From NCBI GenBank assembly GCA_012798315.1, contig JAAZNL010000032.1:1-36326 (forward strand): a stretch of 36,326 nucleotides of DNA. Reading direction: 5' to 3'. Positions 155-1,928 of this stretch are shown here, one piece after another (the first letter of the stretch is position 1; each line of letters opens with the position of its first letter). The translations under genes and the position numbers were made by a program. Source of the DNA: a candidate division WWE3 bacterium. GTDB taxonomy: Bacteria > Patescibacteriota > WWE3 > UBA101185 > UBA10185. The notes below the pieces were generated by a model. That model saw only the letters and a list, made by a program, of their open reading frames with translations. It did no database searches and was not told the origin of the DNA.

Positions 155-1030
155 TTACAAAACACCCAATTCTGTCTTTTCTTCGGTTGTAACCTTTTCG
201 ATATATTCCAAATATCTTTCGGTTGTGGATATTCTTTTATGTCCGGCAATTTTAGAAATGTGAATAATACTTACGCCCGCGGCTAAGTGATGCGCGACAA
301 ATGTGTGTCTTAGGTCATTTACTTTGGCGTTTTCTACACCCGCAAGTTTGAAATATCTATTCACGGTAGATCTGATATTTCTAACTAATAAAGGTTTTCC
401 GGTTTTAGTAATAAACAAATGTTTAGCATTGTCCAATTTTGGTCTGTCTGTTTCCATATACTTGTTAACAGCTTCAACAACAGCCTTATTTAGAGGAATA
501 TTTCTGGAATCCCTGTTGTTTTTCTTAGGAATAAACAAATTTCCTGTTTCGCCCTCAATTTTAAGATCTTCTGTCTTCAAATCGGCTAATTCCGAAATGG
601 TAATTCCGGTTTGGAGCAACACTTCTACCATGGCATAGCTTCTTGCGTCGTCGCGTGTAGCATCTCTTAAGGCTCGGTATTCTAATCTGGATAGAATTCT
701 GGGAGCTTTTAGATCTACTTTCGGGTGTTTTAAGTAATCAGCAATGTTTTCTTTAATATGTCCAAGACTGTGTAAATACTTAAAAAACGTTTTTGTAGCG
801 TTAGTTTTTCTTGATACGGATTTGGGGGTATAGTTTTCTTTGGTTAGCTTTTGCATAAATTCTTCTAAATGATGCAATTCGACCTGTGAAACCAAATCTA
901 TACCTTCCTTTGCCAGGTGGTCCATTAACTGCTCAATATCCTTGCTGTAGGCAATAAGCGTTGCGCTTGATTTACCCTGACTTCCAAGGTGCTCTATAAA
1001 GTCTTCATGTGCCTGTTGTATTTTTATCAT
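155..1030 (-). CDS. XerC/D-like tyrosine recombinase with altered active site
   Basis: This 291-residue protein has the usual layout: an N-terminal SAM-like core-binding domain (about residues 1-95) and a C-terminal catalytic domain. Family motifs are visible as LRHTF, then IAGHKRISTTERY with the nucleophilic Tyr. Two catalytic positions differ. The first catalytic Arg (normally TGxRxSE) is Thr in TGITISE, and the His of HxLR is Asn in NDLR. The reading frame is intact and the Tyr is kept. It may be a divergent Xer, a regulatory DNA-binding protein or a decaying integrase. It converges on tRNA-Ile, a classic integrase neighbour, but I see no attachment repeat or mobile-element cargo. Confidence 0.85.
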   Translation of the reverse strand: MIKIQQAHEDFIEHLGSQGKSSATLIAYSKDIEQLMDHLAKEGIDLVSQVELHHLEEFMQKLTKENYTPKSVSRKTNATKTFFKYLHSLGHIKENIADYLKHPKVDLKAPRILSRLEYRALRDATRDDARSYAMVEVLLQTGITISELADLKTEDLKIEGETGNLFIPKKNNRDSRNIPLNKAVVEAVNKYMETDRPKLDNAKHLFITKTGKPLLVRNIRSTVNRYFKLAGVENAKVNDLRHTFVAHHLAAGVSIIHISKIAGHKRISTTERYLEYIEKVTTEEKTELGVL

Positions 1031-1587: not shown

Positions 1588-1661
1588 CGCGGGGTGGAGG
1601 AATGGCACCTCGTCAGGCTCATAATCTGAAGGTCCCGGTTCGAATCCGGGCCCCGCAACCA
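1588..1661 (+). tRNA. Initiator tRNA-fMet (CAU), CCA encoded
   Basis: The acceptor CGCGGGG faces CCCCGCA, so the first pair is the C1xA72 mismatch that marks bacterial initiator tRNA. The anticodon loop is CTCATAA (CAU). The T arm CCCGG-TTCGAAT-CCGGG is canonical, with a genomic ACCA end. Only two G pairs remain at the bottom of the anticodon stem, one of them G-U, instead of the usual three G-C pairs. The D loop is short (AATGGCA). Confidence 0.92.
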
Positions 1662-1696: not shown

Positions 1697-1705
1697 TGTT
1701 ATAAT
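1697..1705 (+). promoter_or_regulatory. Extended -10 promoter upstream of the hairpin array and tRNA-Met
   Basis: TGTTATAAT is an extended -10 element (TGn plus a consensus TATAAT). No good -35 lies at 17 nt; TTGATA at 1680-1685 is only 14 nt away. A transcript starting near 1712 would include all three mini-hairpins and the tRNA. Confidence 0.5.
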
Positions 1706-1732: not shown

Positions 1733-1847
1733 GCCAATGAGGCGTTACACGCCCATTGTCACTCACTTCGTTCGTGCCAATGTGTTGCTTTTGCAACCAT
1801 TGGCCTTCGTAGCACTCAGGCCAATGTACCGCTTCGCGGTCATAGGC
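1733..1847 (+). repeat. Three tandem mini-hairpins carrying the acceptor stem of the next tRNA
   Basis: Units begin with GCCAATG at 1733, 1776 and 1820, and the tRNA begins with the same heptamer at 1854 (spacing 43, 44 and 34 nt). Each unit has the outer 7-mer, one unpaired base, a 5-bp stem and a 3-4 nt loop. The inner stems are GGCGT/ACGCC, GTTGC/GCAAC and ACCGC/GCGGT. Unit 2 (1776-1804) closes perfectly with CATTGGC, unit 3 with CATAGGC (one mismatch) and unit 1 less well (CATTG, then TC). The inner stems differ in sequence yet stay complementary, which argues for selection on RNA structure. None carries CCA. Partial repeats (CACTCA, CTTCGT) lie between units 1 and 2 and between 2 and 3. 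Confidence 0.75.
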
Positions 1848-1853
1848 TAGTAA

Positions 1854-1928
1854 GCCAATGTAGCTCAATGGTAGAGCGGGCGTTTCATAAGCGCTAGGTC
1901 GGTGGTCCGATTCCACCCATTGGCACCA
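1854..1928 (+). tRNA. tRNA-Met (CAU), probably elongator; CCA encoded
   Basis: The acceptor GCCAATG/CATTGGC, D stem GCTC/GAGC, anticodon loop TTCATAA and T stem GGTGG/CCACC can all be drawn, with discriminator A and a genomic CCA. The C-A-U anticodon could mean elongator Met or Ile2. Met is favoured because a UAU tRNA-Ile is already present. Odd points: the T loop is TCCGATT, with C at position 55 where U is almost universal, and the anticodon stem has G-U pairs at both ends. Three hairpins with the same acceptor stem precede it. Confidence 0.82.

Follow-up and report, generated by a model that had tools for sequence, protein, structure and literature searches.

Upstream of an elongator tRNA-Met gene in a WWE3 (Katanobacteria) genome stand three hairpin units, all headed by the first 7–9 nt of that very tRNA. 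The array lies in a stretch of 36,326 nt (the window, meaning the whole stretch of DNA analysed), in which tRNA calling placed a tRNA-Ile gene at 66–141 and two tRNA-Met genes, the second of which follows the array (Table 1). As an earlier note on this sequence had reported, GCCAATG recurs at 1733, 1776, 1820 and 1854, with spacings of 43, 44 and 34 nt, and its last occurrence is the start of tRNA-Met(CAT) itself. The fold proposed there (the 7-mer, a single unpaired base, a 5-bp stem and a 3–4 nt loop) was recovered, except that the outer stem is perfect only in unit 2, units 1 and 3 carrying one mismatch apiece (in CATTGTC and CATAGGC). Unit 1 has an A as its bulged base; in units 2 and 3 it is a T. 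The two spacers are 15-nt hairpins as well, of the form NN-TC-NN-loop-NN-TC-NN. Folding-energy z-scores were −4.35 to −5.22 for the single units and −5.35 for the leader (1725–1853).

Table 1 Features of the array region, with positions in the window. The leave-out model is a covariance model built from the units of other tRNAs only; E-values of such home-made models are rough.
Feature	Position	Strand	Parts or sequence	Basis or remark
Upstream tRNA-Met(CAT)	1588–1661	+		tRNA call
Extended −10 element	1697–1705	+	TGTTATAAT	window sequence
Unit 1	1733–1760	+	tRNA-start copy 1733–1739; A bulge 1740; stem 1741–1745/1749–1753; loop TAC	sequence; folding; leave-out model match 1733–1775, E 2e-6
Foldback strand of unit 1	1754–1760	+	CATTGTC	
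Spacer hairpin 1	1761–1775	+	ACTCACTTCGTTCGT	TC/TC internal mismatch (minus strand: GA/GA); covariation
Unit 2	1776–1804	+	tRNA-start copy 1776–1783; stem 1784–1788/1793–1797; loop TTTT	folding; leave-out model match 1776–1819, E 5.3e-6
Foldback strand of unit 2	1798–1804	+	CATTGGC	
Spacer hairpin 2	1805–1819	+	CTTCGTAGCACTCAG	TC/TC mismatch; outer 9-bp stem with flanking strands
Unit 3	1820–1847	+	tRNA-start copy 1820–1828; stem 1828–1832/1836–1840; loop TTC	sequence; folding
Foldback strand of unit 3	1841–1847	+	CATAGGC	then TAGTAA, no spacer hairpin
Elongator tRNA-Met(CAT)	1854–1928	+	encoded CCA	tRNA call; source of the copied sequence

The upstream tRNA-Met gene, probably the initiator to judge from its CGCGGGGTGGAG start, is not preceded by copies of its own 5′ end. 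A consensus promoter scan found TTGATA-16-TAATAT at 1680–1707, and the extended −10 element is a possible promoter for the array and tRNA-Met. An Rfam search of the window gave only tRNA and rRNA matches above the gathering score, and no family covering the array units when E was relaxed to 5. The window also contains a tyrosine recombinase gene with a Phage_integrase domain (155–1030, minus strand), whose end and the tRNA-Ile(TAT) 3′ end lie 14 nt apart; it is probably either Xer-like or the remnant of an integrated element.

Copies of tRNA starts in WWE3 leaders

Units of the same plan recur before other tRNA genes: a copy of the tRNA end (W), a hairpin core, a roughly complementary strand (W′), often a spacer hairpin, and then the intact tRNA. 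Upstream copies were sought as starting at tRNA position 1. Four of the 43 tRNAs in the window's genome (Met, Gly-GCC, Pro-GGG and Ser-GGA) are preceded by a copy of their own first seven nt, where 0.5 would be expected with acceptors swapped between tRNAs. In nine WWE3 genomes the count was 41 of 292 against 3.5 expected, a fraction that is not a phylum-wide rate, the nine having been picked since they already showed units; among the 41, two tRNA-Phe matches at about −190 to −197 are chance-like and one tRNA-Gly match (30 nt) is a second complete tRNA gene. The copies follow the acceptor of whichever tRNA comes after them, and the earlier note was right to list an unknown repeat family among its options. 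Copy length varies in the nine genomes (7–9, 12–13, 15–21 and once 35 nt), and some 5′ copies carry 18–85 nt of leader together with the tRNA start. At L203 and L274 (genomes G020 and G006), tRNA-Ile(TAT) is preceded by a copy of its first 35 nt that stops within the anticodon loop and is accompanied by a GA/GA hairpin. The leaders at L223, L225, L231 and L233 of G024 consist of tandem repeats of about 115–140 nt containing a truncated tRNA start together with its complement.

A covariance model of eight aligned units showed base-pair covariation in both helices, and 88.5% of inner-stem cells were paired in register versus 32–45% when slid, which upholds the covariation first remarked in the window's three stems. 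Within the window, the leave-out model matched units 1 and 2 and nothing else, missing unit 3; the units of this model include the spacer hairpin. Units of the GCCAANG form were sought in 84,980 genomes and matched twice, both times in WWE3. The fixed TC-spacer pattern was discarded as a search probe, its matches being mostly chance ones that lie outside tRNA leaders. No title or abstract describing such elements was found in the literature searched, with WWE3/Katanobacteria and tRNA included in the search.

Stable folds and covariation favor a selected RNA leader, whose units would act in the pre-tRNA as RNase P-like decoys or through a switch of W′ between W and the tRNA start, an explanation that we consider improbable. 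The step from covariation to selection on RNA is unsafe because template switching can create and maintain hairpins and compensatory changes, and can thereby also produce covariation (PMC8794818). The outer 7 and inner 5 bp form a 12-bp stack as in RNase P minihelix substrates, but the array units have no CCA, mismatches recur and copy length varies. Copies of 7 to 35 nt across the family, often longer than the 7-nt acceptor strand, do not suit an acceptor-only mimic. Since the copies are often over-long and mirror elements copy the 3′ end (see below), the minihelix mimicry suggested earlier is unsupported. Nor is control of tRNA maturation through pairing with an upstream CATTGGC generally supported: in the 292 tRNAs, reverse complements of nt 1–7 were not enriched upstream, whether exact (4 against 2.7 expected) or with one mismatch (34 against 35.6), and a general W′:W2 switch was rejected, the complementary strands not being in excess. 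Units are absent from the majority of tRNA-Met leaders in the family. The RNase P and switch ideas fit this one locus, not the family.

In orthologous tRNA-Pro(CGG) units of three sister species, W–W′ pairing is kept despite changes on both sides. These compensatory changes are a point for the RNA leader and leave room for selection on the hairpin; something besides insertion may be preserving the hairpins. Over 38 leaders with copies, 6–7 of 7 pairs between nt 1–7 and the region after W were possible in 31, by a permissive test (G–T allowed) that does not separate them from shuffled sequence (68%) and likewise tells against a general W′:W2 switch. W–W′ pairing is clear only for the aligned set of short units of the window's kind (type A); for the type B elements described below it was judged by inspection.

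Sister species also differ in the presence of units: one before tRNA-Val(TAC) is found in one species and missing in two, and the tRNA-Thr(TGT) arrays differ between three. The main rival to a mobile origin is mutational. Tandem duplication of leader and tRNA start, with template switching at hairpin-prone tRNA DNA, would produce direct and inverted copies together, and arrays would be by-products of replication. The variable tRNA-Thr(TGT) arrays agree with such an origin, as do the units that repeat leader along with the tRNA start, the plain tandem repeats of several G024 leaders and the capacity of template switching to yield hairpins with compensatory changes (PMC8794818); the minus strand, which shows GA mismatches and GNA loops, further hints at folded single-stranded DNA. 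We nevertheless regard it as rather unlikely. It leaves unexplained the cores conserved across different tRNAs and genera in two further kinds of element, type B and E3, and the cargo and recombinase genes of these elements.

Elements with conserved cores at both tRNA ends

The conserved core of type B consists of GAGCTTGCTC, a variable hairpin and TGCGCTTCCTC. Its exact pattern matched 14 times in 8 of 380 genomes of the phylum, and the reversed pattern did not match. Most type B elements lie 5′ of tRNA genes and begin with the 5′ end of the tRNA concerned; two are antisense and adjoin the tRNA-Ala 3′ end, and one lies inside an rRNA operon next to 23S. In one case type B also bounds a 1-kb element, located at tRNA-Phe, that contains a 243-aa gene and has a long direct repeat. 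Two matches on viral contigs were set aside as chance-like, the hairpin being missing on inspection. Outside WWE3, at L284 of G268 (about 3.55 kb, minus strand), a type B element lies 5′ of a gene that we take to be YebC-like, on recognition of its protein sequence rather than a database search, and copies about the first 20 nt of that gene, start codon included.

At tRNA 3′ ends, the plan appears in mirror image, with nt 56–76 as the copied part. Own copies of the 3′ end accompany 27 of 229 tRNAs, against about 1.1% expected. The core pattern of these E3 elements matched 35 times in 11 of 45 WWE3 genomes, with no match for the reversed control, and 18 of the 23 inspected elements with a tRNA at most 300 nt upstream end in an exact 20–21-nt copy of its nt C56–A76. 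In G024, the E3 elements beside tRNA-Asp and tRNA-Ile have 71 identical nt in common, and the flanks of each match its own tRNA. A match on a viral contig was dismissed as chance-like, its surroundings being dense in open frames and free of tRNA. At L288, L306, L287, L294 and other E3 loci, a conserved stretch of 82–144 nt (GAGAAT..GGGGTCG..GTGACCGA) adjoins many different tRNAs and is followed by the copy of tRNA nt 56–76; Rfam has no match for this stretch.

The full-length 3′ copies start at C56 without exception. This regularity argues against decayed tandem tRNA duplicates whose interior was swapped for short hairpins, a very improbable origin given also that most copies end at 7–21 nt and that unrelated tRNAs have cores in common. 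Traces that would suit such decay are seen at tRNA-Thr(TGT) in G019, where the upstream copy still reads as a damaged tRNA, and at tRNA-Val(TAC) in G020, where D-stem sequence resumes past the insert.

Some E3 copies are kilobases away from their tRNA. The E3-bounded elements at tRNA-Pro (4.3 kb), tRNA-Lys (5.0 kb) and tRNA-His (7.4 kb) all span a large serine recombinase gene, which in the first encodes a 557-aa protein with Resolvase, Recombinase and zinc-ribbon domains and in the second a 602-aa recombinase; a 1.8-kb E3 element at tRNA-Pro(GGG) has a single cargo gene. The Recombinase domain is present in 29 of 45 WWE3 genomes. Among 30 recombinase genes inspected, 18 lie within the cut-off of −120 to 400 nt from a tRNA and 21 if overlaps of up to about 160 nt count, and all 21 face the tRNA 3′ end. 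The window's genome (G000) has a single such recombinase gene, which adjoins tRNA-Ala(CGC). tRNA genes appear to be the usual target of WWE3 large serine recombinases. For most of the other recombinase elements, no right end was located within the sequence examined around them. At L316, L317, L365 and the loci L322–L351, large serine recombinase genes are convergent with tRNA 3′ ends, and their stop codon often lies within the tRNA.

Type B and E3 cores bound cargo, and type A has in common with them only the plan and the spacer hairpin. The window's units contain no recombinase gene, and no type A 5′ unit was found bounding cargo or a recombinase. Because no type A unit was seen with cargo, the support for mobility of the window's units is indirect.

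Orientation and comparison with known systems

The strand of the spacer motif depends on the side of the tRNA. Strong TC/TC hairpins number 6 upstream of tRNAs (two of them one hairpin common to neighboring tRNAs) versus 1 downstream, which is the window array seen from the preceding tRNA; GA/GA hairpins number 11 downstream versus 2 upstream. None of the strong tRNA-flanking hairpins has the symmetric mismatches CT, AG, CC or GG. Type B is likewise sense at tRNA 5′ ends and antisense at 3′ ends. Since the strand switches with the side, what stays constant is orientation to the gene end and not to the transcript. The rule that the signature motif obeys is thus one of DNA and not of the transcript, and both flips tell against a selected pre-tRNA leader.

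Like genomic islands, prophages and other integrative elements of tRNA genes, the WWE3 elements have their insert flanked by a direct repeat of the tRNA end (the first 7–9 nt for the window's units, 20–21 nt for E3), keep the tRNA intact and, in their large forms, carry an integrase gene adjoining the tRNA. Unlike these, they include gene-less forms, from tens of nt to about 190 nt in size and frequently stacked, and they occur at 5′ as well as 3′ ends. The usual enzyme at tRNA genes is a tyrosine integrase, whereas the large WWE3 forms have a large serine recombinase. REP/RAYT palindromes are also short DNA palindromes with imperfect stems; REPs are not known to adapt to a neighboring tRNA. 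A REP/RAYT origin was rejected, the Y1 transposase being absent from several of the unit-richest genomes (none in G000, G003, G008, G006, G020 and G026). The hairpin and double-hairpin elements of mitochondria are similarly tiny, mobile-looking palindromes of patchy distribution (PMC2800124). They lack flanking duplications (PMC2800124), whereas the WWE3 units repeat the tRNA end and have a stem that matches the target.

Origin and significance of the array

We tentatively regard the array as three gene-less mini-elements of a mobile family that targets tRNA ends, stacked by repeated insertion. The support is direct for the plan of copy, hairpin, foldback and spacer hairpin, and the units are most likely very short members of this set of tRNA-end elements. 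Miniature mobile DNA is a likelier identity for them than a device for processing tRNA. Site-specific insertion beside a tRNA end would duplicate that end; the tRNA would stay intact, so that the insert would be tolerated by selection. The element-side strand, newly matched to the target at insertion, would form the hairpin, and repeated insertion would stack the units. By analogy with the larger elements, the window's shortest units may themselves have moved, through a recombinase acting in trans. In the transcript, they would probably remain passive hairpins, cut away together with the rest of the pre-tRNA leader. Further points count against a mobile origin: an insert of 34–44 nt per unit is very small, a site-specific recombinase alone does not explain the complementarity of W′ to W, and tens of nt of leader accompany some copies, as tandem duplication would give.

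It is possible, though we hold this with less confidence, that the units represent a new class of miniature elements whose insertion, at either tRNA end, duplicates that end and builds a stem matched to each new target; large serine recombinases would move them within WWE3, and they would stack into arrays in pre-tRNA leaders. A stem that adapts to its target has no ready explanation. The conserved E3 and type B cores beside many tRNAs are natural candidate sites for tRNA-directed serine recombinases. If this reading is true, gene-less elements of tens of bases parasitize the ends of tRNA genes without breaking them, in very small genomes.
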